A stretch of DNA of 64,000 nucleotides. Origin: Deuterostichococcus epilithicus. Taxonomy: Eukaryota > Chlorophyta > Trebouxiophyceae > Prasiolales > Stichococcaceae. The notes beneath the pieces were generated by a model. It saw nothing but the letters and a program-made list of their open reading frames with translations, was not told the DNA's origin and searched no databases. The DNA lies in contig JAVTLE010000008.1 of NCBI GenBank assembly GCA_033439295.1, positions 2,418,001 through 2,482,000 on the forward strand, in the 5' to 3' direction. Below, in pieces: positions 6,304 through 28,900 of the stretch. The translations under genes and the position numbers were made by a program. Every line of letters begins with the position of its first letter. Positions within the stretch are counted from its first letter, which is position 1.

Positions 6304-9300
6304 ATGGCCGTGCTGCTGGGTGAGACGGCGGACGCGGCGACGCGGGACCCGCTGTCGCCGGATGTGCTGGCATCCCATGGCGCCTTCTTCGACCATCTGG
6401 TCGAGCTGGTGCCGCCGCGGCACTACCACGACCTGGACGCCGACCGCGTCAGCACAAAGTACATGAAGAAGGCGGACCGGGAGGCCGCCAAGGCCGCCTT
6501 CCGCAAGCAGCACAAACAGGTGTGCGGGGGCTGCCGCCTGGCAGCGGCGCGGTCATGCCCACTCAGACCGCCTGCGCGCATGTGCTGCTGATTCTCTCTG
6601 CAGTTGCAGCACCTGCGCACCTTGGTCTGAGCTACCACGAGCTGGCCAGGCGGCATGTGGTTCTGTGCACGAACGCCGCACGGCTGCATAGCAAGCACCG
6701 TGTCAATGCACCTCAGACAGCAACCGCATTCACGCGTAGCCATACGTCAGCTGGTTGCCTGCCTGTAAAGTTTATGCCAGCAGGCCGGAGTGCAGCTTTC
6801 GAAACGACCTGCAGGTGACTGGCCATGTTCATACAGATGCACACGACACGTCTGCTGCTCGAGCGCGAGCGCTGCCCCTTGCTGCAGAACAAGAAGGACA
6901 AGCTGGACCCCGACAAGGCGCAGACATCGCTGGACGTCCAGAAGAACCTGAGGGCGCAGGCGGGACGCTCACGCGGCGGGGGCGGCCTCACGGAGCCCGA
7001 TGCGGCGGCCGCGCCGGATGCGGCGGGCGCGGCGGCGGATGCCCCGGCGCGGCAGGGGCTGCGGCTCAATCTCACCGGTGAGCCCTTGCAGCTTTCGAGG
7101 GCGTGGACTTTTCGAGCAGTTGACATAGTCTTGGAACAGTATCAGACTCACTCGGCCGGGTTGTTGGCGCTGCCGTGATATGGCTTCAGTGTGCCGCGGG
7201 TGGTGCTGCAGTAGGCATGTCAGGGATGTTAGTCCAAGTACCTGCCCCAGCCTGAAGGTACTTGTGCGCTGATCCGCTGAGTTGCCAGACCTCTTCTGCA
7301 CGCGGTGTCAATACCGCACATGTGATGTATGCGTGCAGCTGTCGGCTGGCGCCTTGAGTGATGAGGCTTTGCATGTGCCAGTATGCACACCTTCTCTCTG
7401 AGTAAGAGAAGGGCAGAGAAGGAGACCCGATAGTGACATACCTGAAACGGTTCCCGTGTCATGTATGCGCAGACGGCGCACCGCGGGAGGAGCTGCAGCA
7501 GCGGCTGGCGGCCAAGGTGGCGGCACTGCGGGAGGCACGGCATGCGGAGGAGCAAGCTAAGAAGATAGAGGCGGCAAAACGCTTCCGCGCCACCAACGGG
7601 CGAGCAGACTCGAAGGCGGCGGGCGCAAAGCGGAACCGCGACGCATCGGCGGGCGGCGGCATTGGTGGCAGCACGCCGAGGACACCGAAGAAGATATCGG
7701 ACGTGGACTTCCAGAAGTGAGTTCGTGCACGACCTTGTGATTGTTTCTGAGGGTGTTGCACAGCAGGCTTGGGTCCTTCAGAACCGACAGCAGCAACCTG
7801 AGGCAGGCAGGAAGTCCTTAGCATGCGCAATGACTGCTCTGCGGGCTGCTGATCAGCTGCTGATCTGCTGATCCGCTGTGCGCGGCGCAACGCAACAGCT
7901 GTTCGCCTTCTAGCAGAAGCCTACATTGCAAGATGTGTGCACTGTGCAAGATGCTCGCAAATGCAAAACGGCAGGCGATCGGGAAGTGGCAACAGGCAAC
8001 ACAGACTGTGTCAGGCTCGCTACCTCGAGCCCCTGAACGGAAGGTCGTAGAGAATCCTCCTGTGGATGCAAGAAGGATCTACACGTGCTCATCTGTTAAG
8101 GTCTATCGCTGATTCTCTTGCAGGCAGCTGGCAGACGTGGGGCAGGTGCTCAGCAGCGGGCAGAAGCCGGCAGCCAAGCGGCCGCGGCCCGCCGCGGCGC
8201 CTGCTGACGCAGACCTGTCCTTCGGCAAGCTGGACATCGGCACAAGTGAGTAATGCGACTGCCTCCCATCCGTCAGCGCAGCCATGCAGGCGCTCCCCAT
8301 GATCTTCTCGTCCAGTCTGCTGGCCCAAGGCATGGTGCATCGGCCAAGCGCCATGCCCGCCGCCGTGCCCCGCAGCCTCCTGTTTGCGTTCGCTGGGGAT
8401 GAAGCTGGCTGCGCAGCCGTGCGCTCACGGGCACTGTGACAACATCGCACGATTGATCACCAGACGTTCTGGCGTGACCAGCGCTAGACCTTCAGCAAGG
8501 GCCGGCCCAGCAGCATCCGCTTAGCAGCTGTCTGAGGGCCCTGAGCGAAACAAGGCGCCCCCAGGCAGCCAGATGAGCGTGAGGCTGCTGAATGGTTGTG
8601 TGCCAGCTGCTGAGCCGCCTCGCTGAAGGTGCAGTGCACACCGAGTCGGGCACTGCACAGCAACCAGCACACAACAGGTTCCTGCGTGGCAATGAGAAGT
8701 AAGAATTATGTGCACGTGTTGCCGCAGCCGCGAGCGGGCTGGTCGTTGGAAAGCCTGAGCGCAGGCACTGTCCGTTTGGCACAACAAATTGGAGCGTAAG
8801 TGTGTTTGTGCACCTGTGTCCGCAGCCGCGAGCCAGCTGGTGAATGAGAAGCCCAAGCGCAAGCGCAAGGACACAAAAGCGTCGCTGCTGGCCAAGGCGG
8901 AGGCGAAGCAGCAGGCGGCGACCAACCCGGAGGACGCTGCGGCACAGGTAACGTCAATCTTTGATCTTGAATACCTGTGGCTGTGTCTGGTTGGCTTGCT
9001 CTGGCGGCCTCTTCGCGGCCTTGCCGGCCACTTGTGAGTCAGCGCAAGGGGTACCAGGAGCAGCATGTCGGCGTCCAACCCTGAGGTTGCCGCGGCGCTC
9101 GTGCTGTCGGCGTTTTGGGGCCCGTGTGCACTGCTGGTCTGCCGTGGGCCGTCAGCAGCGTCTCCACCGCTTGCGAGTCAGCGCCAGGCACACGCTGGTG
9201 TCACATTCACAAGGGAGCTGTGCGGCATGGAGTTGCTTTTCAAGATGGCATCAGTCAGCGGCTTTTCTGCAGACACGGATCTGTATTGCAGTCGACGTCT

Positions 9301-10111
9301 CGTGAGGGTTCTGCGAGCCCTTCAGGGTTCTAAACCCAAAAATCCGGCACAGGCAGCTAGCCTGCTCATGCCTACTCTATCCGCACTGCTTTCGCAGCCA
9401 GCCTCCGCCATTCAGCCGTGGCGTTTCATTGCACAAGCTCGCGAGGCTCTGCTGTCACTGCCGACCTTCCGTGTCTGCGAGTCAAGCCCAGTGCGCCAAC
9501 GCCCAGCGCACCAACCCATCATCGCTGCGCCACAGGCCAAGGCTGCAGACGAGGCGTGGGGCGCGGCAATGGCTCACGGCGACAGCACACGCAAACACTC
9601 GGTGCCCTCGTGCCCAGCGCACCACACACCCTACATCCTAAACTTGTTGCATTGCAGGCCAAGGCCGCGGGTGAGGCGTGGGGCGCGGCGATGGCGCGCG
9701 CGCGGGGCGAGCGGGTGCTAGACGACCCCACCCGCCTGCGGCGCAGCCTCAAGAAGGATGCAAAGGCGGCCGCCAAGCGCGCCGGTGCCTGGGCGGAGCG
9801 CACCCAGGCGCAGAAGCAGACGCAGGCGGAGAAGCAGAAGAAGTGAGTGCGTTTGGTTTGATGCGACTGCGTTTGCCGTGAACCTTCCATGGATGACGCA
9901 CATGCGCTGGATAAGCAGAAGCACGCAGAGCGGCGGTAGTGTTGTTTGAGTTGTCTGCGCCTCACTTGGACCTGCACTTGCGCCACTGCTGGGGCGCGGC
10001 CTTGCAAGCCCAGACGTGCCTGAGCACTTGCAGACTTGGCGTCACCCGTTTGAAGGGGTCGGGAGGGCAGCTCGAGCATGTCAGGCAGTGTAGAGTAGCA
10101 GCGCGAGAGAC

Positions 10112-10160
<49 letters not shown>

Positions 10161-10448
10161 CAGCGGATGGATGCAGACACGTGCTGGGATGTTCACAGTG
10201 AGCAAGGAGCGTCCATCGGGTCCTCACCCAACTGGTGTCTTGAGAGACATCAAGCCCAAAACTGACCCTCTCGTTGAGCATGACACTGATCTTCCCGTCG
10301 TGCGTGCGGCAGGCGCAACGACAACCTGCAGGCGCGCTCGGCGGCAAAGCTGGACCGGAAGAAGGCCAAGCGGGAAAAGAAGCTGCTACGGCCAGGCTTT
10401 GAGGGCCGCCGCTCAGGGTTCATCGCCGCGCCCGGCGGTGACAAGTAG
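6304..10448 (+). CDS. SURF6: Surf6/Rrp14-family nucleolar ribosome-biogenesis protein
   Basis: Nucleolar RNA-binding protein needed for pre-rRNA processing (yeast Rrp14). Seven exons are supported: 6304-6520, about 6889-7078, 7474-7716, 8125-8248, 8827-8946, 9658-9840 and 10312-10448, from ATG 6304 to TAG 10446-10448. The N-terminal block SHGAFFDHLVELVPPRHYH is the family's FFDxLLELIPxxYY motif. A basic low-complexity middle contains NEKPKRKRKDTKASLL. The C-terminal SURF6 domain has GERVLDDPTRLRRSLKKDAK, WAERTQAQKQ, RRNDNLQARSAAKLDRKKAK and LLRPGFEGRRSGFI, all hallmarks. Introns carry decayed copies of the exons starting at 8827 and 9658, and a CAG microsatellite. A second ribosome-biogenesis gene, UTP18, lies 7 kb downstream. 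Confidence 0.93.
8700..8766 (+). repeat. Decayed duplicate of a Surf6 intron-exon junction
   Basis: The bases CCGCAGCCGCGAGC...GCTGGT plus flanking intron repeat the true junction at 8797-8862, about 97 bases downstream, with scattered substitutions. It lies inside the intron and is out of use in the gene model. Confidence 0.8.
9509..9590 (+). repeat. Decayed duplicate of the next Surf6 exon start
   Basis: The run GAGGCGTGGGGCGCGGC, with upstream acceptor and GCCAAGGC, recurs about 120 bases before the true exon at 9658, which reads AKAAGEAWGAAM. The copied unit includes the end of the intron. Confidence 0.85.
10110..10160 (+). repeat. (CAG)n microsatellite, about 16 units
   Basis: An almost pure CAG/AGC tract, ending in CATCAG, lies in the last intron of the Surf6 gene, between the exon ending at 9840 and the exon starting at 10312. 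In that position it is not translated. Confidence 0.9.
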
Positions 10449-11315
10449 CAGCGGCGGCGGCAATTAGCGGCAGCAGCTGCACACGTCAAAGCGGGAACAC
10501 CCGGGCCTCGAAGGCTGCCGGTCGAGAACTACGCTGGTACCAGTGCCAGTGACAGTGCCAGTACGGCGGCGGCAGCGGGCAGGTAACGGACAGTCTCTTT
10601 GCCGCTCCCATTTCGTCCCCAAGCCTGGAGGCGGCGGCTGCTGCAGCTGTGGCGGCGAGTAGCAGAAGCAGGGAGAGGCGGAGGGTTTTCTCGCGCACAG
10701 CGGCGGCAGCAGCGGCAAGAAGTAGCAGGATGCACAGGCAGCAGAAGGTCCTGCACACCACAGGCAGCAGCGGCTGCTGGGAGGTAAGTTGGTGCTGCCG
10801 CAGAGACTGTACCCTGCGCCGATGGTCGCTGCTGGCGGAAGCAGGGACGAATGTCAACAGGAGGGATTGCCTGCGGGCAGAGTGATTGCGAGCCCAGCTG
10901 AAATCGGGGAAGTTTCAGGGAACAGGAAGCTTATACAAGGCGCGGGGTTGCAACTCGGATGAAGCATCGCCGTGAGAATCGACGAAGAGAGTTCTGAATT
11001 CCCTAGTCAGACGGCTGCAACATGTTTGCTGCTGCGTATGTACTGCTGCAGCAACAGCCTCCCAGTCCCGGCTTGCCACCCTTATATCAAGATTTGCATA
11101 TTCGAATTCTGCAGGATTCCCCCGAATTTAGTCCTGTCCGAGGCCTTTGCTTCCTGAGGTGTACAGTGGTCTGCCAAAGCTAATTCGTCGGCCTTGGATG
11201 CAGCCTGGCTGCTGCAATTGACTCCTGAGCGTATCGTCGACAGGCTGAGCAGTCCGACAGCACCGCCAAGGCAAACACCAGCGGCCCGGCAGACAGTCAC
11301 GCTGGAGCCTGAGTG
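10449..11315. other. Intergenic, purine-rich GC tract
   Basis: Rich in GCAGCGGCGGC-type triplets that open many frames on both strands (for example 10486-10857 minus), none with family likeness. It probably holds the Surf6 3' UTR and the promoter of the next gene. Confidence 0.35.
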
Positions 11316-14045
11316 ATGGCACCGTTCCTGCCTTGGGTGAAGACGCCTGAGCAGCTGGAGGAGCCGTCAAAACCGGCAAAAGCAGGTGTGCACTGGGGGC
11401 TGAACATCCCCTCTCCAGGTCCCGTTGGTGCTCGTGACTCTGCTGGCTGGTGTCTGCCGTTCGCTTCGAATCACCTCTTCGTACGTTCGAGCAGCTGCTG
11501 ACCTCGGCGAGCGAGCGGAGCCTTGCACAAGCGTTGGACAGCCTGCAGCTGCACAAGTGAGCAGGGAAAACCGGGCCGCTGTGAGAGCCACTGCCGACAA
11601 TGCAATACGCGGAGCACATCCGACATCCTGGGGAAAATCTACTGACAGTAAAGGAACACGCATTGTCATTGCGGAAATCACTGATGAGCAATGATGCTAC
11701 GCTGCAGCACCTCTCGCGGGCGCAGCAGCTGGGGGCGGCATGATGCAGACCTTGAAGAGTCTACCTAGCAAACTGCCGCTGCCCCTGCCAGGTAGACTAG
11801 CAAATTACCGTCAGAAGGTGACTCTTTGACTGTGCATCAGCCTCGGCGCCGCTGGAAGCTGCAACTGGAGCGGTGAGCAGCCAATGAAGACATGCAGCGG
11901 CAGTCACGTGACACAGAATGGTGTGTGTCCCAGGCGTGGGCGGCGGCGGCGGAGCGCCCACTAATGGCGCTGCGGGCGGCGGCCTCTCGGAAGCGGCCAA
12001 GCGGATGCTCGCCTCACTGTCCCCCAAGCTGCCGCCGGGTCTGCCCATTCCTACCCAGATGCTCAATACGGTGCAGGTGACTAAATTTGAGTCGTCTGCT
12101 CTCATGCAGCCCTGCCATTCCCGTCAGCTAGATCCCCATGCATGGCAGGATCTCAGAAATGGAACTGTCGCAGCGGTACGCACTGCACAGCTTAACTTTG
12201 TGCACAGGCGGCACATGCACAACCGAGACACACATGCAGGTGCCGAGCATTCATGTGGCCACACGAAGCACATCTGAAACACAGGCGTTGTGCCCGCAGG
12301 GCGGCAAGATCCAGCTGGGCGCGCCGACGGGGCGGTGGCAGATGATCGTGGTGTACCGCGGCAAGCACGACCCCGTGTCCCGCAACTACCTCGTCGCCCT
12401 CGGCCAGGTCTGCTGCGCACCCCCTACTGCACGGACGTCGATGTCATCAGCCAGGACCGGCACGCGTGCTGACATGTGCGCCCGTAGGTCATCGGGCCAC
12501 TGGGCTGGAAGCATGTGCATCCACGTCGCACGCTCACTGTGGAGCCAGGCACGTCAGATGAGTGCAAAGCATGCGTAGTGAGGCAGCCTTGTCCGGCTCC
12601 ATGCGGAACCTGTTTTCGGGGTTCTGGCTGGATGTTCCACCAGCATCTCTTCTGACGTGTGTGTCGGGCGAGGTGGCGAGCTGCAGGGCCTGGGCAGTAT
12701 GCTGGTGGATTTGGTGGACGCTACATCGGAGGTTGATTCACTAACAGCACTGAAAGCAGCTCAGGCCTGGATTCATTTCGACTGGCGTCTGCGGGCAGGT
12801 GCTGGGCGACCTACAGGACCTGGGCGTGGAGCTGGTGGCGGTGAGCGGCGACCCGCGCGAGCGCGCTGAGGCCTTCGTGAGCGCCTCCGCTGCCGGACAT
12901 TGCATTTTGCAGTCTCCGCCGTGATGCTGCATTGTGGGAGGCGCCTCGTGGCGCTGGCCACACCTCCGCGCCAGCATGTCCGTTGCTGATCATGCACTGT
13001 GTCGTCGTTGCGCAGCTTGAAGTCTCCGCACACTGGCAATTCCCCCAATGGCGCTCGTGGTCCTTCTTGCGCCAACTCGTTTGTCCATCGACTAGGGCGC
13101 TACAAACCCTTTGTCTGCGGCCCATGCAGGGATCGGTCATGGCCGTCAAAACCCGTCTCCCTCATGGCGCTTGTGCAGGTGGAGCTGCTGAAAGCGGCAT
13201 CGCAGAGCAAGGAGGTGCCCTTCAAGATTGCGTACGGGCTGACGCTGGAGGGCATGCGCCAGTGGGGCCTCTACATCTCAGCGCCCAGGTATCCTCACAT
13301 ACAAGGCCCATGGTCCTCAGCCAGAGCCGCTCCAACTGAGCTTTCCTTGGTTGCAACACCGCACATCAGCACAGTGCAGGCTCGATATGACTGACAGTGA
13401 GTGGCCAGCTGCAGAGTGAATGGCCACGCAGCCGCGGCCATCCCTTTGCCGATTTTGTCCATTCCATCAGATGCTGCTGGCATTTTTCTTTTCGTGTACC
13501 CGGAGCGCAGAAGAAGCTGGAGTTCCGGATGGCCTGCCTGCTGTGCTAGAATAAGGCGAAAGCGTCTTGAATGTCATGCATCGCAGGAACGAGCGGGAGA
13601 CGGACCGCCCATTCCCAGAGCCGGCCATGTTCGTGCTGAACACCGACGGCGTGCTGCACATTGCCGACTACTCCAACTCTCCCTTCGCGCGCCCCGACAT
13701 CCGCATCCTCATCGAGGGTGCGGTGTTGTAGGCCACACCTGGCAGCTTCAGCTGACGATTCCCGAAAGGGCTTCATATATATACAGGATGCCTGTGAAAA
13801 CAGTCTGTCACCAACAGCGCACCAGCTGTGCATTTGCGCACTGTGCTCCATCTCCCGCTGTTGCGGACTACTTCTTCGGGCTCACGTTTCAGTGTCATCA
13901 AGGTGAAAGCTGTGGCTCTTGTGAGACTCCATTGCTGAACGATTGTCATACCTCACTTGCAGGCATCCGCTACATCCAGGAGAACGACTACCCCATCCGC
14001 GGCACCTACGGCCTGCCCACGAGCAGCAGCGGCGGCGGGATGTAA
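11316..14045 (+). CDS. Peroxiredoxin-like (AhpC/TSA-related) protein lacking the catalytic cysteines
   Basis: Thioredoxin-fold protein of the peroxiredoxin-like family. ATG 11316 opens MAPFLPWVKTPEQLEEPSK; that exon joins in phase to one starting at 11935 (GAPTNGAAGGGLSEAAKRM). Further exons are near 12298-12407, 12799-12873, 13180-13289, 13587-13720 and 13963-14045, with stop TAA 14043-14045. Family landmarks are WQMIVVYRG, LGVELVAVSGDPRERAEAF, KIAYGLTLEGMRQWGLYIS, PAMFVLNTDGVLHIADYSNS, and the terminal IRYIQENDYPIRGTYG, which matches the family's NDYPARG. Relatives normally have a redox motif (HCPxC) just after VVYRG; here the codons give KHDPVSRNYL, so both cysteines are replaced. Peroxidase or disulfide chemistry at that site is therefore unlikely. 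A further short ORF at 11496-11558 could be an extra exon but does not fit the phase. Confidence 0.8.
12664..12735 (+). repeat. Decayed duplicate of a peroxiredoxin-like exon
   Basis: A stretch reading GAGCTGCAGGGCCTGGGC...GCTGGTGG parallels the true exon at 12799-12873 (GACCTACAGGACCTGGGC...GCTGGTGG), about 135 bases upstream of it and inside the intron. Confidence 0.7.
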
Positions 14046-14878
14046 AACTGGGCACGCCAAGGAGTCCAGGATGAAGCCGAAATAAGCTAATATGCTCTTC
14101 GATGGTGCGAGGCGCAGATTGCTCGCATTTCGTGGTGGCTGAGGGCGGTGCCACAAAGCAACGAGGTTGTGGTCCGTCTGCAACGCCGACAGCACACATT
14201 ATGTCACATGCATACATGTTAGGGTGCTAACAGTCTAGCAGGATCACCGCAATCGGCCAAGAGCGCTTGATCTCATGTTGGGGCTGTTCGCAAGAATGTG
14301 CAAGCAGGCATCGGACTGCCTTGGTAGACAGCGTCAACCTGCAAGTGTGTAGTGCTGCATCTGTGTCACTGTACTTTTCTCGCGCTTGCTTGATGGCGGA
14401 GGTCCGCGATCAGAACGTTGCTGTGCCGGTAGGCCGAGCGGCAGCATGCTACTGTGCCCGCTGCTCCTATCTCGTATAACACTGCTGGTGCTCGACTGTG
14501 GTTATAACTGTGCAAGTGTGGTTTGCGGGTTTCCTTGTTCTTGGTCAATATCTGCCTGTAAAATACATATGAAGTGTGAGGTGGTTGTCGGTGGCACACC
14601 AGATGATGATGTTCAGGACATGAGCGACTTTTGCTGCTGATAGCCTGTGTACCACAACTGACGCGAGTTCCGTTATCCAGAATCTGGTTTCATTTGACAT
14701 GGAAACGAATGAATGTGACACCTCGATAGTGAGACACTCTCCACACAGCGTCCAGCCAATGCGGCGGACAAGAATCAATGTGCACACACACTGCTGCAGT
14801 CCTCATGTGCGGCGCATGAGGCAACTTCTTCGGAAAGCAGCTGCACATGTAGTCGAGGTAAAGTCTTCCTGCAGATCT
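14046..14878. other. Convergent intergenic region
   Basis: Lies between the stop codons of two facing genes and should consist of their 3' UTRs. A TGTAA, the usual chlorophyte polyadenylation signal, occurs near 14556 on the plus strand. No coding block is recognised. Confidence 0.4.
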
Positions 14879-17315
14879 CTACTCCTCCTTCTTCTGCTTT
14901 ATTTTCGTGCGCCAGCCCTCTTCGACGGCGTCATCGTTCACTGGCGCCGTCGGCGCCCAGCTGGGCCGGCTCTTCACCGCCTTGAGGAAAGCGTGCACGT
15001 TGGTGTACTCCTCCGGGATGGGCCAGTTCTGCAGGAATTGACCAGCACTGCATTTCAATTGCGCCCAGAACTGCTCCTGCAAAACCAGCATGCGCATGGC
15101 AGCAGAGGTGCCACAGCATCTCTGAAGGGCACAGCAGCTGGCATGGCAATGCCGATCTCTGCTGCCCAAGCAAGGGACGATCATTTTGCTGCAGTGTTGG
15201 GTGATACCATCGGTAAATACAGGATGCCGTGTCAGTACTGCACGAAAGTTTGGCAATGACGCTGAATGGCAGCCCATCAGTGGTCGGGCCTGTCTACCCA
15301 CCTTGATGCGGTCGGTGGCGACAGAGATGTGGTACAGCCGCGGCGCCAGCGCCAGGCACTGGGAGCACGGCTCCTTGCCGCTCAGGTAGGGGCCACCGTT
15401 CTTGCCGAACGCCTCGTCCAGCGCCTGTGATACATACAACAAAGTGTCTGGCAACGGTGCAGCAGGTTTGAAAGGGTGGCTGGTGCCTTGTCTCAATACG
15501 CCAGGCAACCTTGACCTTGGAGCTTAGGGGCCAACGGCCAGCTGATGAAGCTCGACTGCAATCGCCCTGGGATAACTAGGTGTCTTGACACAGATGCTAT
15601 GCAGTCGTACGCAAGTGTGTCTGTTCGAGTTTCTGGAATGCCACATCATACAGACTGATTGCACACCTTGTACTCCTTTCGCAGCTCCTCTTTGGCCTTC
15701 TCCTCGTCGGAGGAGCCCTCCTCTGCCAGCAGGAATTCCATGAACTTGTCCGGGAACAGGCTCTCCCCCCTGCAGCATGAAGAATTCGGTCGTTCATAGC
15801 ACTAACAGCAGCGGCAGAAGTCTGCAAAGGCAAAACCTGGGAGCCATGCATGGTTGGTGACATATTGGATGTGGCACAGAGGACTTCAGCCCAGCAGCAT
15901 GGATGGTACTACTCCGTGCATGTTCACAAATGCCACGAAATAACGTCACGGAAGCGCACGCGTCAGATGTGGAGTCGGGGGTGCCCAGCTTGGGGTCTGG
16001 GAACTTCTCCTGCGAAGCATGCAAGGTAAGGACTGCTGAGATGCGGGCAGGCATGTCTTGTGCGCAGCAGTTGGCTGCACAGCCAGCGAGCTCGCTTCGC
16101 TGCAGGTGTAGGTGGGCAAGCTCCCGCCGCCGCCAGCAAGCTGCATGCAAATGTGTAGATGCCTCACCTCGATGTACTTGATGATGTCCGTGGACTCGCC
16201 GATGTACTTGTCCGCCTGGTGGTCGTACAGCACCGGGATGAGCGGCTGGCCCGCAGGGTGCACATCGCCTGTGAATGTGATGCCTGTCGTGAGAGCCAGA
16301 TGCGGGGCACTGTGCATGCCATTCGTTAGGCCAAAGGCAGAGCTCAGGCGGCTCTGTGATGTAGAAAGCTCGGAGATATACGCAGAACAGCCTAATCAAC
16401 CGTACAGAGCTCACCCAGGAACTTGGGAAGGTCCTGCTCGTTGCACAGCTGCTTGCGGTAATGAACATTCTTTTCCTACAAGAGACGATGTGAAGTTTCA
16501 TCAGCTCCTGTTCCATGCATTACTGAACACTTGCAAACTTCTTTACGTGTCAACTAAAGGAAACTGACATACGCAACTGCGACATCGCCACGTCGCCAGG
16601 ACCGTGCGGTTTGGTAATTCTGTTGCCTAGCAAAATGAGCCTTGCTGGATATCGGGCGGCGTACGTACCTCGAGGGTCAGCATGACCCACTGCGAGAATG
16701 GACCTGCATGTCGAGAGGGTAGGAGCAGGGATGAGCTGAGGGTGCACGATGGAGAAATGATGACGCACGGAGAGCAGACATGGCAGTGATCATGGTAGCC
16801 CATTCATGCACATCGATCATCAGACTCACAGTCGAGCAGGGTGCCCTCCAGCGAGGGGTTGCCACCCTGGGGATCAAGAGTTTGGTCCGTCAAGACGTAT
16901 GATGCTCAAACCATGTGCAGGACATGCTTATGCATGACTAACTATAAAACAGCACCAGTATCATGGCGCACAAATTAGCACCAGTACCATGGCACACAGC
17001 ACCATGGCTACATTGCCTTGTTGCAGCAGGGGCGGCATTGCGCCAGCAGCGCCAAATTACCTTCGGATCTCCCTTGCAGAACACGTCGAACGCGAAGTCA
17101 TCAGTTTTAGGCTGTGATGCCCCCGCCATCGCGCGGATCTGCCTGTTCGATCGCTGGCTCTGCACTGGTGCCGCCTGCGTCCGTGGCGGTTGTGCAGTCA
17201 GGCGGAATGCTGAGGATGTGCCGGGCGCAGCACACCAGCAGGTCGATGCAATTGACCTACAGGCTCCGATTCTGAACGCTGAACGGCAGGTGAGGCTCGC
17301 GGAAACCGCAGACAT
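14879..17315 (-). CDS. DHAR: Dehydroascorbate reductase, GST-DHAR class, probably plastid-targeted
   Basis: Glutathione-dependent enzyme that reduces dehydroascorbate to ascorbate in the ascorbate-glutathione cycle. The start at 17315 gives MSAVSASLTCRSAFRIGACR, a Ser/Ala/Arg-rich leader typical of a chloroplast transit peptide; an internal Met (MAGASQPKTDDFAFDVF) could give a cytosolic form. Minus-strand exons then read GNPSLEGTLLD and, across the next junction, the catalytic CPFSQ (Cys codon split T|GT), then WVMLTLE, EKNVHYRKQLCNEQDLPKFL, PLIPVLYDHQADKYIGESTD, FPDPKLGTPDSTSD, SLFPDKFMEFLLAEEGSSDE, ALDEAFGKNGGPYLSG, LAPRLYHISVATDRIK and NWPIPEEYTNVHAFLKAVKS. The stop is TAG at 14879-14881. 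Both the N-terminal thioredoxin-like and the C-terminal helical GST domains are complete. The gene is divergent from UTP18 with about 590 bases between starts. Confidence 0.93.
16950..17003 (+). repeat. Short tandem duplication in a DHAR intron
   Basis: AGCACCAGTATCATGGC and AGCACCAGTACCATGGC occur about 27 bases apart, followed by a third partial copy AGCACCATGGC. This lies in the first intron of the DHAR gene. Confidence 0.75.
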
Positions 17316-17905
17316 ATCGCGACAACGGGGATGGTGCGCACTTGAAGCTTCTCGACGAGCTGCGTGTAGATCGCAGTGCTTGCTCGTACAAGCGTGTGCT
17401 CAGCGAATGGATTTTCTGAAAGCACGTTTTTGGGAGGAGATTCAACACACATCAGCGAAGTCGGGCTGAAACGCCTTTTGATTAGCTAGGCGCTGGCTGC
17501 CGAGGATCTCTCTTGAATCTTGCCGCCCTTGAGCGCCAGAGTTAGAACAGCTAGAGCCAGCTATCACTGTTAGGCACACCAGCCCCGAGTGCATCGCAGC
17601 AGGGCGGGCCACATACAGAACGTTGATTGGGTTGTCAGATCCAGAGGCTGGTGCTGGCTCTCACTGAGCTGCTCCCGGTCCGCCGTCCCTTGTTTCGAAA
17701 CATTTGCAGCCGACACTGCTGCGACAGCGTGCACAGATCTCGGTGAGAGGCTGCCGACAGCGTATAGTCCAGGTTCCGGCTGTTCGATCATCGAAGACGG
17801 AGTGGCCTTGAGGCAGCGGCGGCATTGTCGTTCTGGTCTTCCATATAGCAGCAGCCATCCCTGAGCACGGTCGGCATTCGGAGGACGGCCTGAAGGCGGG
17901 CCACT
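17316..17905. promoter_or_regulatory. Shared divergent promoter region, DHAR / UTP18
   Basis: About 590 bases separate the two start codons on opposite strands. No exon fits either gene, so both promoters must lie here or in 5' UTR introns. No specific element is claimed. Confidence 0.45.
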
Positions 17906-20900
17906 ATGAAACCCGACGACCGGCGATCCGGCCGTCAAGCGATGCTGGCGCACTCCCAACGGCAGAAGGTACTTGCCGATGCGAAAGGCTCCTGCACTGT
18001 GCTCTCTGCCGGCGGCGAGCCCCCGCAGCAGCATACCTGGCTGCTGGCAATGGGCAGTCGGCGGTGGATGGATCCAGTCAGAAAATTCAACGTGTTCTTG
18101 ACGGCTTTCTTCGCTGCAAATCGCAGGAGGCAGAGCTTGAGTCGACCTTGTTTGGCGGAGCGGACCCTGAGGCGGACTTTGGGCGCGAGGCCGGCGCGCA
18201 GCCGTCGGCATGGGTGGACGAGGATGACGCGGCGCCTGCGGCGGGCGCGATCGCCCTGTGGGAGGACCGTCAAGGCGACGCTGGCACTAGGTGCCCAGAT
18301 GTGTTGCAACTGTGTTGACGCCATGCATCTGGGCGGCCGAGGTGGCAGCCGGTGTTCGTGCAGGTTGGGAAGAGCAGCACAGCAGGTTGACACTACACCG
18401 CTACCCTACGGCCAAAAGCTGCTGGACTGGCCAGAGTGCAAGCGATGGGCCTGGTGTGCATGCCGCACAAGTGAGGCATACCACACTGATGGCCAGTGTA
18501 CCTCGCAGTCTCATGCTAGCCAGCCGGACGCCTGAAGCAATGCGACAGGCTGACGAGTCCAGTTGAATCCTGTTTGCAGCGAGGCGGACGGCGGGCAGCC
18601 GCGTGGCCGCAAGCGCGGCGGCCGCGTGTGGGAGGACCCTGACGATGTGGGGCTGCGGGTGGCAGTCGCGGGACGGCCGCGGCTGCGCAAGCTGCGCCAC
18701 ACCGAGGACGAGGCTGCCTTGTCAGGTGGGCCAATGTTTCCTGCCCATGGTCTGAGGTGCTGGTGGACTGCAAAGTAAAAGCAGCGGCCTTGGCAGTTTC
18801 ATGCAGGCTGCGCCGCCATGTGTGTGTTCCGAGGTCGGCTTCCCAGCCAAGGCGCGCTCATCCGAGGACGGCGGCATGTCCTCTGAGGTCGGCGGCGTGC
18901 AAGCAGTATGTGGCCGCCCACTGAAAACCAGATGCCGCAACCCCGCACATGTAGGCGTGCAGTACGAGTCGCGGCTGCGGGCGCAGCACAAGAAGCTCAA
19001 CCCGCGCACGGCGTGGGCAAAGGCGCGGCCCGACGATGCGGAAGCGGCCCGCGACCTGGCGGCTGGCGGCGCGCTGGCGGCGCCGGCGCGGCTGCCGGCG
19101 GGGACTCTGGAGGTGACGCCGCTGACGGACGCCAACAAGGCGGAGCCAAGCGGCGCCGTGGTACAGTCGGTGGAGTTCCACCCCAACGGGCAGCTCCTGC
19201 TGACGGCGGGGCTGGACAAGCGGCTGCGCCTGTTCCAGGTGACCCCCTTTGAGGTCTCGTGTTCAGGTTTGCTCTTGGCTCCTGGTGTTGAGCTCCCCTT
19301 CGTGCTGCACGGCGGCGCTGAGTCGGCGCTCCAGGGGTTTCAAGCCGCCTCTGCAATGGAGCCCTACGCGCCCTGGCGCTGATCGCCCTCCCATCATGTT
19401 TTTTTTTGGTGCCTACGTTCCTGACGCGCGAACCCTCAATACCCCCAAGCCTGTGGCAGTATCCACCCAGCCATCCGCAGGTGGACGGCGTGACGAGTCC
19501 TGGAGAACTCCGTTCGTCGGCATCGACCTCTTGAGCCCAGGTGCTCTCTGTGCGCAGGTGGATGGCGTGAGGAATCCCAAGGTGCAGAGCGTCTTCCTGG
19601 AGGATCTGCCGATCCACCACGCAGCCTTTGCCGCCGGCGGCAACCAGGCAGGCTCCCCACTCTGGTCGTCTTTGCGTATGCCTCCCTGCTGTGCCAGCAA
19701 CCGGCGGTGTTCTGCTGTGGCTGCCAACGCATGCGGGGTGAGGAGATCGACGAAGGAGGCTCATTGATGACTGCCCAAAGTTGTGCAAGACAACGACTCC
19801 ATGCGCGTTCGGTAGGTCCAATCCGCCGGGCTACCGCTCCCCTATGCCGACAGAATACTACCTGTGGGCCCTCTGCCTGGTGCCACTGCAATATGATGAC
19901 CAAAGCTTCTGGTGCCCGCAGATCGTGGCGGCGGGCAGGCGGAAGCACTTTTACATCTACGACCTGGCGGGTGGCGATGTGGCGCGCATCAACCACCTTG
20001 CCGGCGTGCCAGACCGCAGCCTGGAGACCTTCGCCGTCAGCCCTGCCGCCCAGGTGGGAGGTTATAAACAGGCAATCGGCTGTCCCAGCTGCAACAACGC
20101 CTTCTCTCGATGTCTTCTTCTCTGGCTCAGACCTTATATGGTGGCCTTCCGTCTCCGCTGTGGGGCAGAAGCCATGCCCCGGAAGTTCCTGTGAAACCAC
20201 CCGTGCATGCCTGTGGCCTCGCCGCTGAGGCTGTGTCGAGATGCCTGCGTTTCGTGTGGTGCCTCTTTTGCTGTCCTCCGGTAGTGAAGTTAATGCTTTA
20301 CGGCTCCCCCGAATAGGACCTGTAGAAGCCAAATACGACGAGGGCCGCAGCTCCTGAGTGCTGCCTCCCTGGTCCACCTCCGACTGCTTCTTCTCGTGTC
20401 TAGAATCCTGTTGCTACTGAGCAGGACCAGCAGAAGCCGACGGTAGCGTTTCTGGGCGACGAGGGCCGCATCAGCCTGGTGGCCCTCGCCTCCCGGCAGC
20501 TGACGGGCACGCTAAAGATGGCGGGCACCGCTCGCGCCGCCGCCTTCTCCCCTGACGGCACCCAGCTTCTCAGTCTCGGTGGGTGCTCTGCCCCCGCACG
20601 CTTGGATGCAGGAATGCCAGGATAGTGGGTGACGTGGCTTGGGAGGCGCTGTGCCCCAGGTTCCTTCCAGGAGCAGCAGGCGGAATTTGTGCTGTCTTGC
20701 AGCTGCTTGTTCCCGACAAACACCACGCAACCGCGACATGTTTGCCAGTGGCATTGCTGTTCAAACAGGATGAGCGGGGTGATGAGATTGCTGAAAGAGG
20801 CCCTGCGCCGTTGACGACCATCAAACAACAGTCTTCAAAGTTTTCTGACCGCTCATGGTTCCATCTGCAAACGTAGCTCCCCGCTTGTACCTATCATCCG

Positions 20901-22215
20901 GTCGCGATCCTGACCGCATTCTTCGAAGTCATCTCTGCAGGGTCATCACAGTCCGTGTCTGGCCCTGGCATGCCACCTGAACAACAGTTCCACAGTTTGC
21001 ACGTGCTGACACCCCCCGCAGGTGGCGACGGCATCGTGCACACGTGGGACCTGCGCACGCAGCGGTGCCTGAGCCGCGCAGTGGACGAGGGCTGCATCCG
21101 CGGCGCGTCCCTCGCCTGCTCCGCTGACCTTTTCGCCACCGGCTCTGACGCCGGCGTCGTCAACATCCACAGGCGGCCGACCGGTGACGGCGCCCTGGAA
21201 GGTGCGTTTCTACACTTTCTGGAAACCGTTCGCGATCATTTTGTGACGCCTGAGTGGTCAGCATCCACAGGCGGCCAACCGGCGGCGGCGCCCTGAAAGG
21301 TGCACTAGGAGTGATGATTGTGCAGCTTTCCGGTCTACAGGTCTCACACTGCAATGAGAGAGTTGCTCATGCCAGCCATGCTGCTCGCAGAGGGCTTGTC
21401 AAGGGAGCCTGCCAAGCCCACTGCATGTGATGATAGGATGACCAACAGGGAGTCGAGGTGTGTAGGCGCGGCGCTTGCTCCTGCGAAGGGCTCGTCAATG
21501 GCACTTCCTTTTGCTCAGGCATTATTCGAGGGCTGCTGGGCTTTTGCTCAAGAGGGTGCCCGCAGCTGCAGCAAGGAGTCGGTCTCGCAGCGTCAGGTAC
21601 ATGGTGCAGCACCAAAACCGATAACCCTCACGACTGCTGCCGTGCCGTAGGCGTCGCAGCTCAGGCAGCTGCCGCGGCGGGTGGCGGCGTGCCGGCGCCG
21701 GCGGGATTCCGGTCGCCGCTCAAGAGCCTAATGAACCTCACTACCACAGTAGACAGCCTGACCTTCAGCCCCGACCAGCAGGTGCTCTCGATGCCTTCAT
21801 GACTCGACCGAAAGCTGCCTGCCCGCACATCTCACCGCTAGGGATTCTGCTTCCAGACACCTGTCATTCAGAGGCTGATGGCATTGAGGGTACCCACAAA
21901 CGGAAGAGTTGAGAACCTGTCAGTGGGCTGGTTCTTGCAGCGGGATTGCACAATTAAGACCCGTGGACGCCGCTACCTGCTGACGTCCACTGTGTGATGC
22001 TGCAGATCCTGGCGATGGGCAGCCGCCTGGCCCGCAATGCGCTGCGTCTGGTGCACACGCCGAGCATGACGGTGTTTGCCAACTGGCCGACGCCCGCGAC
22101 GCCGCTGCAGTACGTGCACAGCCTGGCCTTCAGCCCCGGGGGCGGCCTGCTGGCGGTGGGCACCGCGCGAGGCCGCGCTCTTCTGTACCGCCTGAACCAC
22201 TACGCGACGGCGTGA
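17906..22215 (+). CDS. UTP18: Utp18, WD40 protein of the small-subunit processome
   Basis: U3 snoRNA-associated nucleolar WD40 protein required for 18S rRNA processing. ATG 17906 (MKPDDRRSGRQAMLAHSQ) joins in phase to an exon from about 18060 (KIQRVLDGFLRCKSQ, then AWVDEDDAA). Later exons are near 18580-18728, 18958-19238, 19558-19647, 19921-20054, 20416-20578, 21023-21201, 21650-21780 and 22007-22215, with TGA at 22213-22215. Signature blocks are YESRLRAQHKKLNPRTAWAK, VVQSVEFHPNGQLLLTAGLD, NPKVQSVFLEDLPIHHAAF, KHFYIYDLAGGDVARI, VDEGCIRGASLACSADLFAT, SPLKSLMNLTTTVDSLTFSP and LRLVHTPSMTVFANWP. The C-terminus GRALLYRLNHYATA matches the family. The exon ending at 19647 (GGNQ) is followed by GCAGGC, so this intron uses a GC donor. 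Introns hold decayed copies of two exon edges. Confidence 0.95.
19475..19500 (+). repeat. Decayed duplicate of a UTP18 acceptor and exon start
   Basis: CCGCAGGTGGACGGCGTGA here mirrors GCGCAGGTGGATGGCGTGA at the true exon start (19558), about 77 bases downstream. Confidence 0.75.
21258..21304 (+). repeat. Decayed duplicate of a UTP18 exon end and donor
   Basis: The segment matches 21159-21206 (exon end plus GTGCG donor) at nearly every base, including CATCCACAGGCGGCC and GGCGCCCTG. It lies about 99 bases downstream, inside the intron, and still carries a usable GGTGCAC donor-like site. Confidence 0.85.
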
Positions 22216-22698
22216 AGTGGGGAGCCAAGCCTGCTGCTGCTTGGCCCCGCTCTGCCTGCAGACCGCCTTGCAGGAGACAGCTACAGCTAGCATGGCTCTG
22301 CTCGGTGCCAGAGGGGTTGTTCAGCGCGGCATGTGACTGCGAATGTGCACGTGACATCGTCAGTGGTCTGTACAGGGTCAGGTGCTCTGGCGGCCGTGTG
22401 TTGTCGTGTGGTTGCCGCATGGAGGTATGGAGCATTCTTAAACGTTGGCCTGGCAGAATCACCTCTGTGGGCTTCAAAACCTCTTCAGCAGCATTTCGTA
22501 AACTTGGGGCGGAGTTATGGCATCTTAAAACACAGCATCGAAGTGCGCCAGATCGGAACAGCGCCAAAGTGCGCCAGATACTTCGGTGCTGCAATCAGTC
22601 CCTCAGTCGTGACGCAACTGCCGGTGATGCACCCATGCGAGCGGGATGCGTCTTCTTTCCGCTGGACTCTGCTCAGCTGGGGGCCAGAAGCCAAGCGG
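22216..22698. other. Convergent intergenic region
   Basis: Lies between the UTP18 stop and the stop of the facing coiled-coil gene. It should be 3' UTR of both. No other feature is seen. Confidence 0.4.
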
Positions 22699-25495
22699 TC
22701 AAGGCTGCGCTGCGGAGAGGTTCTCCGGCCGCAACGCCCGACAGAGGTACAGGTCCATCAGCTTTGTCGGCTTGCCCGCCGCCGCTGCCGCCGCGACGAT
22801 GTTGGCGGCATATTCCTCGAAGCGCGCCTTGGCCACCGTGGCTCCCTTCCGCTGGGCGACAGCCATCTGGAGGACACAGTGATAGTCCAAGGAAATTCAC
22901 TTCTGCCCAGGATCTAGGCCCATGCTCGGGTTGCAGTGGTCCACGTGTGGCAGCTGATATCAATGTCTGCACGTTTTTCATGTGATGTCGAGACAGCATC
23001 CCACCTCGCAGTCCGCTAACTTAGCTGCCAGGGCGCGCCACTGCTTCTCGGTGACCTGGCCGTCGAGGTACGCAGTGCACTTGCGGTTGCGCGCCAGCCG
23101 CTGCGCCGCCTCCGCCGCCTCCACGGCCGCCGTAGCTTCCAATGCGGCCCTCACGGCTGCTGCCTCTGCAGCCTGCTGCTGCCTGGCCGCGGCGGCGGCG
23201 TGCTGCTTTACTTCCAGCTGCTCTGGCCAGTTCCTGACGAGGCAGGCCACAGCATGGAGTTCAGTCCCACCCTTACCAATTTCTAATGCGCAGGGACTGC
23301 AACTGAGTGCGCGACATGGTATCTGAGGAATCGAACCCATCCTGGCCACGCAATGTCTGAGCTGTGAGGCTTCAGCTTTGTCGAACTGTTCGTGAGTATA
23401 CACGTGCTACGTCCAAGCGCACCCTGAACTGGCCTGCCATGCTGCTCGGTCCCTGGCAGCCCTTGCAGCGTCTTGTGCCGACGCCATGTCCTGCGCTTCC
23501 TTGACTTCCTGCTTCAAGCGCGCGGTGCGGTCCTGCTTTGCCTGCACATATAGCAATAGGTGAACATCTCCAGAAATAGTAGTCAAATTGGGAAGACTGC
23601 GCTGTCTTGACCACTTGGCCTGTTCCGCCTGTGCATGTCGGTCCGCTATTCAGGTCTGCATCACCAATCCCAACAAAGTAGCCACGCACCTTGAAGATTC
23701 AGCTGGTGGATCGTTCAGAGCAATTTTGCAGTCTGCAACGTCCGCTGACAACCATGACTCTAGATGACAGCCTTTCACCGCATCTGCCAAAACGAGCAAA
23801 ACCCAATTGCAGCCACTCTGCAACCTACACACTGCTTGCACAGTCTGTCAGCAGTCTCAAGGGCGTGCCTGCAGCACATCGTTGGCGGCAGCAGTTGCCA
23901 TGTTGGCCGCCAGCGCGCGCTCATGCGCAGCCATTGCCTCAAGTCGTTGCAACTCGACCGCCTCTGCAGCCTGCTGCTTCATGGCTGCACCCGTGGCCTG
24001 CATCGCCGCCCTACTGCACAGAGCTTCATCTCAGAGACCTCAAACTGCACTAAAGAGGCTTTTCTGTCCACCTGTTCTTTCTCATCAAGCTGCGCTTGCC
24101 TTTGGAGCGCGGCACCTTAATGCCATATGCAGGGGCGCACCCAAAACCTACCGTTCCACTAGCGAGGCTTCTTTCTTGGTCGCAACTCACCTCTCTGCCA
24201 GTATGCGGCCCTTGAGCTCCTCAAGCTAGGCCAGTTGAAGTCGGCGCTGCTCCAGCGCCGCGGCGCGCGCCGCTTCCGCTGCATGCGCCTCCGCTGCCTC
24301 CTCTGCCTCAACAAGGCAAGCGGCGGATCGTCTCCTCTGTAAGGCCATCGTGCAGCTGCGGAGTTCTTGGCTGGTGTGAATGCAGTAGGGTCGCCTTTCA
24401 GGCAGGCAGCCGGACGACAGACCTGCTACCTGCAGTGCCTCGCTTCTGCGCTGCAGGAACCGGTGGTCCGCCCCTCGCTGTGCCGCCAGGGCATCGCGCT
24501 CGGAGGCCGCCTGGCCCCGCCGCGCGATGTCCACATCGGCCAGCGCCAGGCGGCTGAGCAGGCCGCGGGCCGCGTCCTGGTCCGCGAAGAAGCGCTTCCG
24601 CTGCGCCGCCGCGACGACCGCTGCGTGCTTCGCCGCTGTCAGGGCTGCCTCGTCCTCGTCTTGCTGCGGGCGGGTGGTGGCGCAAATCTGTCTTGCAGCT
24701 GCCAGGCGTCAATCTTCGGCCATTGGCACGGCCAGCCAGCCATCAGATTGTCGCAAGCAAGTCTTTTGAATTTGATAGTGACAGGATCACCTTCCTCGGC
24801 AGCATCGGAGCATCATTCTTTCATCGACTCATGCGCACCTGGTGGGCTCAACCAACATGTCGCAGCGCATGGAGCGGGCCGAGAGACAACCCCTTCCATC
24901 TTTCACGCGCATTGAATGTAAGCTGATGCATCAAATCCCTACACTGCCCTCACCTGCACTTGGCGCACCTCCGCTTCTGCCAGACTTCGATCCCACAGCG
25001 CCGCATTTGCGGCACGATCTGCAAGCACCACCGCGGCCCACTGGGCGGCGCGCTCGTCATTGAGGCGCTTTACAGCCTCACGTGCCTGCTTGGGCGTCCC
25101 TACCGTTGCGCTCGCCCTGTCACGGGCGATCTGGGTCAAGACGGCGGATCTACAGTGACATCATCGGTTGACTCAATGAGTCGCATCATAGATCAGGCCG
25201 CGGTGTTGAATCGCGCGCGACTGCAAAGGATTGGCCGCTCACACCGAGTCCTCCTCGTTCCCAGTTTGGCCGGGCTTTCAGCTCGGCACTCGCGCTGCAC
25301 CTCGCGGAGCTGCCGACACTTGCCGCGCGCATCCTAGGCCCTCAAACAGGGCTGCAAGGACTATTGGAAATGTGACTTTCCCTTATCAGTGGAGCCCTCG
25401 ATATTGCCGTGGTCGTTGCGCGTCTGGCCGAGAGATTTGGCTACCTGGCTGCGAAGCACGTCCAGCTGTCTCTCGGAGATCACCGCGGCGCCCAT
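22699..25495 (-). CDS. Alanine-rich coiled-coil protein of unknown function, with an in-frame stop in one exon
   Basis: Start ATG 25495 (MGAAVISERQLDVLRSQ), stop TGA 22699-22701. Exons near 25140-24951, 24680-24432, 24345-24190, 24010-23866, 23548-23425, 23240-23012 and 22868-22699 share one character: Ala, Glu, Arg, Gln and Lys heptads with almost no Pro or Gly, e.g. ARDRASATVGTPKQAREAVK, ALTAAKHAAVVAAAQRKRFF, KQDRTARLKQEVKEAQDMAS and RNRKCTAYLDGQVTEKQWRA. The C-terminal exon is less coiled (FEEYAANIVAAAAAAGKPTK, then LMDLYLCRALRPENLSAAQP). The exon at 24345-24190 reads QRRLQLA, then TAG, then LEELKGRILAER, so the frame is broken at 24226-24228 while sequence on both sides stays coding-like. 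It could be a structural or cytoskeletal coiled-coil protein; no family is recognised. The exon at about 25323-25240 is the least certain. Confidence 0.6.
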
Positions 25496-25930
25496 GGCGA
25501 TTCAGCTCAGATATCCGAAGCGGTTCAAGGATCGTGCACCTCAGTGCGCTGCTGTTTGCCGACGCAAAGCGAGCTCCAGCATGTCGTACGAAAGCAGGGG
25601 GAGCGTGCATGCGCCCCGCCGAGGGGGTGCCACAAAAAGAACACAGCACAGACTCGTACAGTTTGTGCTTTCGACCATCTGCCCTTGAGGACACCTTCCT
25701 TCTGCTCATGTGCAAGCTGTGAAAGGCGCCCGCAAGCCGGATCACCACCTAATCTGAGCAACGAAGGAACACCTGGACTTAAATCCTGTGGTATCGCACA
25801 ACTTGCGAGGACTGCTGCCCCTGAGCGCCTCACCTCAGTAGCCTGGAGGTGGTCGTATCCCACAGCCCGTACCATCGGTTGCCTCTCGACCCGGACCGCA
25901 GACTGCTGCCCCGTGCGCAGCGCGGCCGCT
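25496..25930. promoter_or_regulatory. Divergent promoter region, coiled-coil gene / methyltransferase gene
   Basis: A 435-base gap separates the opposite start codons. Open frames crossing it on both strands show no family likeness. No specific element can be named. Confidence 0.35.
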
Positions 25931-28900
25931 ATGCCTCCTGCCGCAGACGAAAACCCTGAGCAACACTTGCCGCAGCAGGACGCAGCAGACCAGCCGGAGC
26001 CCCTCTCTCAGGCGGACGCAGCGCTGATCAAGGCCGCTGGTGAGGCCGGTGTGGCGGAGGTGCGGCGGCTGTTGGCGGCGGGCGCCGATGCGGCTGCGCA
26101 GGTCAGGCTCACGAAATCAACTCATGCTGCGGACAGTTGTAGCCGCGCACGACTCGCAGCTCCAACACTGCGTGACACCGTCCTCTGCCGGGCGCACTCT
26201 CGAGGATGCGCCCCCTGCCGCCCCTATGTTGCCGCATGCACACGGCAGTGCGAGGTACTGGACCCAATGTCGCACCCTGATCAGTCCGTCGTCCTGACGC
26301 CGACTGCCACCAATGCCGCTGCAACTTGCATGATGCGCAGGACGAGGCCACGGGCACGTCTGCCCTGATGGCGGCCGCCGCCCGCGGCGACACGGACAGC
26401 GTCAAGGCGCTGCTGGAAGCGGGGGCGCCCTGGAACGCGCTGGACCGACGGGGGCGGTGCGCCGGCGACTGCGCTATGGCGGGCGATCACGCCGGCGCCG
26501 CGGGCGCGATTCTCGAAGCAGGCAGGGCGCCCTCGTCCTCCTGCCCCACGACAGCTGACATCATCATCAAAGCACTGCGCTCTTTTGCAGCAATGCACTG
26601 CGATGGAGCAGCAACTCCTTCATGCTGGCGGGGGTGATGCAGCGGACGACATGCCAGCATGTGGCGGCGGCGTGAGATGAACAGAAGACGTGCATCACGC
26701 AGCCACGCTCGAATAGGCCCTCTGAATGCTGTGACCAAGTTGTGGTTGAAGCGCCATCGTGGTGATGCGGTGCCCTGATGTGTCCTAACACATCAACACG
26801 CCGCCAGTCAAGCTGGCCGCGGCGGGAGCAATTGCGAAAACACACCCACATCCGCTACCAACCCTCCCTTCCATGCCACGGCAGCGACCTTTGGCACAGC
26901 CTGATGCCGATGGTGTGGCAATGCTTCCGTGCCCGGACAGTGCGTCTTGAACAAGATGCCAGGCATGCGGACGGAGCTGGACCTTGAAGCCACCTGTATT
27001 ATGGGCGCCACCACCTATCGGTGGCGCCTGCCGCTGCAGCAACTGCACGGTGCTGATGGCATCCTGGTCAATGCTGATGTCGCGGTGCTAATGTGGCGCG
27101 CCAGGCGTGCGGGCGGAGCTGGTGCTGGGGGCCGCGCAGCGCGGCGCCTCCGCCACGGCAGGCCCCGCCAACAACGCCTTCCTGCAGCAGCGGCTGTCGT
27201 ACGACGGCGACAAGCTGCTGGACGCGGAGGCGCGCGGCGTCATGATGGCCTGGGAGGGTGCGCCGTGCTCCCTCTTCCCCCTTTTCTTCAGTGCAATGTG
27301 ATCGCCACACCAAGCGAATGTCCAACTCTGTCATATGCGGCGTCGAGGTCATCTGGCAGGGCAAGGCGATGACGTCAAGTTTGCGGCAGGCACATTTGAC
27401 TCCTTTGTCGGGACTACGGGCCGAGAGGGCAGCATGCTGCCACAGCGGCTGTGCAAGCTCTACTGAGGGCATACACGCCTGAGACTTGAATTGGAGCCAT
27501 GGCTGCGGTGCTCCGACAGACGTTCCTCCCGGTCTGCGCCCGGGTGCCGGGCAGCATCTTGCCCGCCAGCGCCCCTTCCATGACCTCGGACCGGCAGCTG
27601 AGGTGGCCGCCCCCTTCCTGCTTCCTGCTGCAGGCCCGCTCATGCAGGCGCACGCGCAGGCGGTGGCGGGCGCCCGCGGCGACGTCCTCAATGTCGGCTT
27701 CGGCATGGGCCTGGTCGACAGGGCCATCCAGGTGCAGGCTGAACTCGAGGCCTCAAGGTGCTGCTCAGCTGGCTCACGTGCGCGCTGCCTGCGTCCCTCG
27801 CAATCCCGAGGTGCTGACAAAACTTGCCGGCACAGGCCAGGAGTGAGTAGGCCTGTGTATAGGGTACACCAGCCACGATCCGGGAGTGTGTTCTGGCCAC
27901 AGGAGCACGCACCGCTGAGCCACACCATCATAGAGGCGCACCCAGAGGTGTACGAGCGCATGCTTGCAGAAGGTGAAACCCTATCTAGCGCCACGGCCTC
28001 AATTACGACTCGGCAGCGGTCATGGAAGACACAAACACCAGAATGCCATCACAATATGCAGTTTCTAGTCGTCCAGACACAAGGTGGGACCAAAAGCCAA
28101 GTGTGCGGCTGTTGTACGGCTGCTGTCATGGCATCCGCCGTCATCGCTGGGAAAGCCTGCAGCCAAGCCTCATGTTCTCTGTGTGCCGACACAGGGTGGG
28201 GCCAGAAGCCGGGCGTGCGCATCATATTCGGCCGCTGGCAGGACGTGCTGCCGCAGCTCGGCACCTATGACGGAATCTTTTTCGACACGTTTGGCGAGTA
28301 CTACGACGACCTCAGGTGCGGAAAACCCAAAAAGCGTCTTCCAAGGTTCGCATGCTCCTCGGCAGCGAAGAATGCTGCCACTGTGATGAGCGCCTAAAGG
28401 GAAGTGGCAGGTCTTGCAGGATGCTAGTGCTGCTTCAGGTCGCATTGCCTTTTTGACGCCTCGCTGAACGCATTGCCTCTGAAAAGGAGTTCCACCTGGC
28501 GCCGCCCGAGCTGCTGAAGCCGGAGACTGCACAGTTGTACATTGCAGCCGCTGCATCATCTCTCTTCGTGACTATTCCTCAAACGGTTCAATCATGGCAG
28601 GGAGTTCCACCTGGCGCTGCCCAAGTTGCTCAAACCGGAGGGCCTGTACAGCTTCTTCAACGGCCTGGCGGCCGACAACGCCTTCTTCCACTCTGTGTGC
28701 TGCCGCGTTGTCACCGCCGAACTGTCCAGGTGTGGATTGCCACCGATGCTGTCCCCATCTTCCTGGTGTGTGCCTGTACAAGAGACGCTTTCTCCCGCAG
28801 TGCCTGCTGCCGCCTCGTCACTGCCGAGTTGATGCGGTGCGGCTGTCGGCGCTGCAGTGTCCCTGATCTCGTGCTGCGTTTCCAGCATGTGTGCCCTGAT

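Follow-up and report, generated by a model that had tools for sequence, protein, structure and literature searches.

Copies of exon edges in the window genes

The window analysed here (G000:C7:2418001-2482000) is a 64,000-nucleotide stretch of the genome of the trebouxiophyte green alga Deuterostichococcus epilithicus (assembly GCA_033439295.1, contig JAVTLE010000008.1), which comprises 46.8 Mb in 21 contigs. Between 8.7 and 28.9 kb the window contains four genes whose introns hold near copies of the adjoining exon edge, namely UTP18 and three genes that we take to be Surf6, a peroxiredoxin-like gene and an RMT2-like gene, names that stem from the initial annotation. The identity of UTP18 is borne out by the names obtained in protein searches, with the best named matches in Apatococcus fuscideae (52%) and Trebouxia (51%); the RMT2-like protein returned ankyrin matches only. 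The initial annotation had described introns in five genes that contain near copies of the exon edge beside them, and eleven copy pairs were located in these four (three in Surf6, one in the peroxiredoxin-like gene, three in UTP18 and four in the RMT2-like gene), in addition to a 26-base repeat in the fifth gene at 45.2 kb. As confirmed in a wider sample of the genome, these exon-edge copies are genuine and extend beyond the window.

Exons were predicted by a self-trained hidden Markov model, and the edge test aligned as many as 80 bases at each exon edge with 300 bases of the intron on that side. Five of the eleven window pairs score at least 15 in this test and five score 13-14, and one UTP18 pair lies outside it (exon called at 24 bases) and scores 16 in a scan of matches by lag, the distance between the two members of a pair. 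Identity ranges from about 74 to 91%, with the exception of one pair of 14 identical bases. All the window copies listed below are on the plus strand.

Surf6 contains an acceptor-edge copy at 8709-8766 (true edge 8807-8864, exon start 8826, lag 98, score 14), in which the similarity extends 19 bases into the intron and CCGCAG is retained. A donor-edge copy follows at 9059-9096 (true edge 8907-8943, exon end 8947, lag 152, score 18), with an intron part that is similar as well (z 3.2), and a second acceptor-edge copy at 9533-9573 (true edge 9655-9695, exon start 9658, lag 122, score 25.5, 88% identical) was called as an exon by the model. The peroxiredoxin-like gene carries a weak copy near an acceptor edge at 12675-12708 (true sequence 12805-12838, exon start 12799, lag 130, score 14). 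UTP18 contains the acceptor-edge copy seen in the lag scan at 19476-19500 (true edge 19553-19577, exon start 19558, lag 77), a weak match at 20336-20349 consisting of 14 identical bases of the next exon (20457-20470, lag 121, score 14) and a donor-edge copy at 21244-21303 (true edge 21146-21205, exon end 21201, lag 98, score 36), which is 87% identical over 60 bases and includes the donor AAG/GTGC and an in-frame stop. The RMT2-like gene harbours acceptor-edge copies at 26958-26980 (true edge 27100-27122, exon start 27105, lag 142, lag-scan score 17, edge score 13), 28076-28128 (true edge 28188-28240, exon start 28195, lag 112, edge score 13.5) and 28486-28525 (true edge 28601-28640, exon start 28601, lag 115, score 27.5, 88% identical), and a donor-edge copy at 28785-28827 (true edge 28678-28720, exon end 28729, lag 107, score 18), so that the exon ending at 28729 has copies of both its edges. 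In the gene at 45.2 kb, a 26-base tandem duplication holding an acceptor (45180-45205, second copy 45206-45231, exon called from 45226) has a unit much shorter than that of the main class.

Over the plus strand from 8.0 to 29.5 kb, 6 of 51 exon edges score at least 15 (one of the six being a copy miscalled as an exon) and 9 of 51 at least 14. The corresponding controls yielded none with shuffled introns, none with the reverse complement and one with the far-side intron (two at 14 or above). Two further repeats were observed in the window, a long CAG run at about 10113-10160 between two called Surf6 exons and a 20-base tandem repeat at 32677-32719 with one difference over 23 aligned bases.

Excess over controls in the sampled genome

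The scanned DNA consists of the window and 24 sampled 10-kb stretches of the same genome (L-numbered), giving 25 stretches and 304 kb of the 46.8 Mb. The exon model arrived at the splice motifs CAG/GTGCG for donors and TGCAG/G for acceptors, and all six proteins tested against Pfam (taken from 17 printed predictions) matched a family, including 6-phosphogluconolactonase, Aha1 and replication protein A. The model is partly wrong, in that at least two intron copies were called as exons (window 9536-9601 and L015 near 5007-5076).

Among 901 exon edges, 43 have a copy scoring at least 15 in their own intron. The controls for the same edges gave 0.0 with the dinucleotide-shuffled intron, 2 with the reverse complement and 5 with the intron across the exon (far side). 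The initial annotation had proposed a scan for excess over randomised controls as the test of its claim, and across these stretches the excess stands. It is also evident in the 24 stretches other than the window (35 of 718 edges, 0.0 shuffled). Furthermore, own-intron matches numbered 48 among 956 edges versus 2.1 expected from the introns of other genes (score 15, 400 bases searched). The copies are thus local, on the same strand and on the intron side of the edge. The two miscalled-copy edges were retained in the count of 43, in the set of 48 pairs used for codon positions, in the sets of 34 pairs used for intron-half homology and exon reach and in the set of 40 pairs used for lags, and were left out of the set used for doubly copied exons and splice sites (38 copies).

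At a score of at least 14, the 956 edges yielded 54 pairs, about 7 of which are expected by chance; 40 lie at lags of 84-152 bases (24 acceptor and 16 donor edges) and 14 at lags of 178-438. A pair in L008 with a lag of 274 entered the 956-edge, 54-pair and codon sets from both sides. An all-lag scan of the 304 kb that makes no use of gene calls found 2, 9, 6, 5 and 8 pairs scoring at least 16 in successive 15-base bins from 75 to 150, and 0 and 0 in the next two bins. Over the 25 stretches, copies are most frequent in two exon length classes with means of 133 and 171 bases (5.6% and 9.6% of edges) and occur at 1.1-2.2% of edges in the other three classes.

Spacing of the copies

The spacing of the copies is narrow, the 40 lags between 84 and 152 having a mean of 114.5 bases and a standard deviation of 17.3. 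In the per-lag spectrum, which includes weaker matches, the excess lies within 70-160 bases and peaks at 110-130, with a 6.6-fold enrichment at lags of 110-120 for scores of at least 9. There is little excess below a lag of 70 and none at 160-200. The spectrum rises weakly beyond 200, and part of this rise consists of second steps in three-copy series with regular spacing, as in L004 (copies at 120 and 243) and L015 (112, 112 and 224).

The clearest case is found in a minus-strand gene in L004 (7131-7436), with three acceptor-edge copies at steps of 120 and 123 bases, two of which share 25 identical intron bases adjoining the junction. In-frame internal repeats of the encoded proteins were considered as a source of the copies and rejected, as only 10 of the 40 lags are multiples of three. 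A genuine in-frame coding array does occur in L019 (6413-7209), where a 102-base unit encoding a motif with APHMPPESAAP is 94% identical over 139 bases and represents a protein repeat. A shorter-lag class is also present, including a 27-base pair in the window (39228-39254 and 39286-39312, 58 bases apart, 96% identical, called noncoding) and noncoding tandem pairs in L016 (1299-1401) and L013 (8192-8258) with steps of 51 and 42 bases and identities of 94% and 100%, respectively.

Sequence decay and splice signals

Over the 48 pairs (a few of them entered from both sides), differences between copy and exon occur at 94 of 641 first, 93 of 632 second and 139 of 636 third codon positions. Since positions 1 and 2 are alike and the additional change at position 3 is the exon's own, this pattern corresponds to a neutral copy facing a selected exon, and the copies decay like noncoding DNA. 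In-frame stops are present in 5 of the 48 copies, and 18 gaps occur over the 48 pairs. Of 38 copies, 19 retain the splice dinucleotide (AG or GT) and 19 have lost it, and a score above 4 on the splice matrix is reached by 13 of the 38 copies versus 29 of the 38 true sites. The codon-position differences and the in-frame stops speak against the alternative exons envisaged in the initial annotation.

The duplication record is mostly old, because only 3 of 40 pairs are at least 93% identical. Neither this nor a joint fit to the exon and intron halves, which calls for some 0.2-0.3 substitutions per site in each copy, supports the suggestion that the duplication is ongoing.

Origin of the copies

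The exon-edge copies probably derive from old tandem duplications, with units of about 75-155 bases, that spanned exon-intron junctions. Such a duplication would give the intron an additional splice site together with some exon sequence; with splicing keeping the outer copy, the original mRNA would be produced, the intron would be longer by one unit and the protein would be unchanged. The inner copy would subsequently decay as noncoding DNA while the true exon stays under selection, and for this reason a copy would be visible mainly where it matches the exon. That a duplication took place and was neutral is inferred from the surviving pairs, as is a putative origin in repair, in which offset nicks are filled in and joined, a route proposed for comparably sized tandem duplications in plants. 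The initial annotation's proposal of tandem micro-duplication across splice junctions remains the best account of the copies, and its link to intron growth holds; ongoing activity, alternative exons and the formation of new introns are not supported.

Homology of the intron half of the unit (z>3) is present in a minority of pairs, 6 of 34, including the highest-scoring pair, L004, where it spans 34 alignment columns of intron before the junction and 70 exon bases after it. The other 28 pairs weigh against a straddling unit and leave room for template switching at a break having copied a short piece of exon edge to the intron, with no tandem unit involved. This unlikely alternative would also explain why ungapped identity drops to near background within 10-20 bases of the intron (a profile that left out both miscalled copies, one further L015 edge and the L008 pair at lag 274). 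When tandem duplications were simulated with uniform ages and the same exon-half identity, intron-half homology was predicted in a fraction of 0.59-0.73, far above that observed. Simulated old duplications, at about 0.25-0.3 substitutions per site with a low indel rate or 0.2-0.25 with a higher one, come close to the real pairs in exon-half identity (observed 0.84) as well as in intron-half signal, and the drop in identity within the intron is also what an old tandem unit would show. The six pairs with intron-half homology, some of it across most of the unit, are not accounted for by exon-only copying, nor would it lead one to expect the narrow spacing and fixed orientation, given the two reverse-complement matches among 901 edges. 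It is very improbable that selection maintains the copies as alternative or mutually exclusive exon ends: half of them keep AG or GT and about a third score as splice sites, but the near-neutral codon pattern, the stops and gaps and the loss of the dinucleotide in the other half argue otherwise. An origin from spliced mRNA via cDNA, which would leave sequence of the partner exon beside the copied edge, was rejected as scarcely credible. The flank of the Surf6 copy at 9533-9573 resembles the tail of the previous exon (rank 0 of 60 controls), but over 46 pairs the flanks match other exons about as well as the partner exon (mean 8.2 versus 8.4), and 5 of 46 flanks have three or fewer of 60 controls as good, with about 3 expected.

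The simplest form of the preferred explanation, random duplications seen through survivorship, is disfavoured, a judgement that depends on the decay model and the gene calls. Random units of this size would be wholly noncoding in 46% of cases and cross one junction in 36%. Several observations run counter to the preferred explanation. Matches internal to introns at lags of 80-160 number 29 at a score of at least 12 (background about 20) and 5 at a score of at least 14 (background about 2.6), where random placement predicts 76-277 and 19-254, respectively, numbers that assume particular substitution and indel rates. Among 30 strong pairs at lags of 75-155, not one is noncoding on both sides; 17 match exon to intron, and in 13 both members are labelled exon (four being the L019 coding repeats, and others miscalled copies). 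Such noncoding pairs are detectable, because five exist at lags of 42-61. Furthermore, the exonic part of the copies measures 18-78 bases (median 50) and exceeds 70 bases in 2 of 34, compared with 36-43% expected under random placement, and at score 9 the lag spectrum is uneven, with little excess at 80-90 and none at 140-150. The scarcity of intron-internal pairs, the absence of doubly noncoding ones and the bounded exon reach would be explained if transcription, splicing or exon-edge chromatin makes duplications at junctions, a less likely but live alternative in which duplication occurs as in the preferred explanation. It would also fit the exons matched at both edges (5 of 448 versus 1.1 expected, P 0.0016) and the uneven spread of copies over the 25 stretches (P 0.011). 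However, the prediction for random placement hinges on the decay and gene models, and the clustering may arise from false short exons diluting the rest. The bounded reach also fits if the unit has to retain some 40 or more intron bases (a fit that left out both miscalled-copy edges), which would plausibly let the true site keep its own intron signals. It is a tentative possibility, on the unlikely side, that exon-intron edges have been targeted in this lineage by a process duplicating units of close to 115 bases and tied to transcription, splicing or exon chromatin, whose traces would be preserved throughout the genome and account for a substantial share of the length of its introns.

Intron length and intron gain

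The 37 introns with a copy have a median length of 371 bases versus 270 for the 417 others of at least 160 bases (P 0.008), a comparison in which detection itself favours longer introns. The difference of about 100 bases corresponds to about one unit, in agreement with the intron growth put forward in the initial annotation. The lengthening of existing introns is told mostly through transposons.

New introns formed by the same route had also been suggested, and the comparison of donor and acceptor regions of the same intron does not bear this out. None of 625 introns reaches a match of 13, and a small excess is confined to low scores of 9-11 (at score 10, 6 versus 2.8 and 8 versus 3.2).

Comparison with known systems

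A simple edge scan recovers old duplications that would be hard to see in plain noncoding DNA, because coding selection holds one copy still. In intron-rich genomes, this approach could show how often short tandem duplications have arisen over long periods and what sizes they had, and could ask whether they favour exon edges. Among the matches listed from open-licence literature, none was seen, as judged from titles and the starts of abstracts, to describe copies of exon edges in introns across a genome within such a size range, which constitutes weak evidence of novelty.

Introners (PMC9860276) likewise represent a recurrent, intron-linked gain of sequence across a genome. Here, in contrast, exon edges rarely match the introns of other genes (about 2 of 956 expected at score 15, versus 48 in the own intron), although a shared element family was not searched for. 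In duplications guided by CST and Pol alpha-primase at break ends (PMC8355091), break repair also results in short tandem duplications; these were described in mouse and human cells with induced breaks, whereas the enzyme at work in D. epilithicus is not indicated by the sequence. In yeast lacking RAD27, insertions arise that reach about 100 bp and have direct repeats at their flanks (PMC5677150), and flap-processing duplications of this rad27/FEN1 type are similar in size, from tens of bases to about 100 bp. They differ in their short flanking direct repeats, a feature for which the breakpoints of the exon-edge copies have decayed past comparison.

Tandem duplication of exon sequence containing AGGT is a recognised route of intron gain (PMC3443670; PMC2891723; PMC10809524). 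As proposed for the exon-edge copies, the duplication lies beside splice sites and its effect is removed by splicing. A new intron arises inside an exon there, whereas an existing intron grows here, with no donor-acceptor match of 13 or more among the 625 introns.

In rice, the share of events that are tandem duplications is 70% at the outset, drops off above 125 bp and is down to 5% by 200 bp, and these duplications are attributed to the repair of adjacent nicks (PMC7971508). These patch-mediated duplications resemble the copies in being tandem and on the same strand and in having a similar upper size limit (no excess at lags of 160-200). Unlike the rice events, the pairs in D. epilithicus are mostly old, decayed exon-edge pairs, in which no breakpoints or nicks were observed. 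The two size profiles also differ at their lower end, as the rice duplications described in that report include many short ones, while those of D. epilithicus peak at 110-130 bases, near 115, with little excess below 70.

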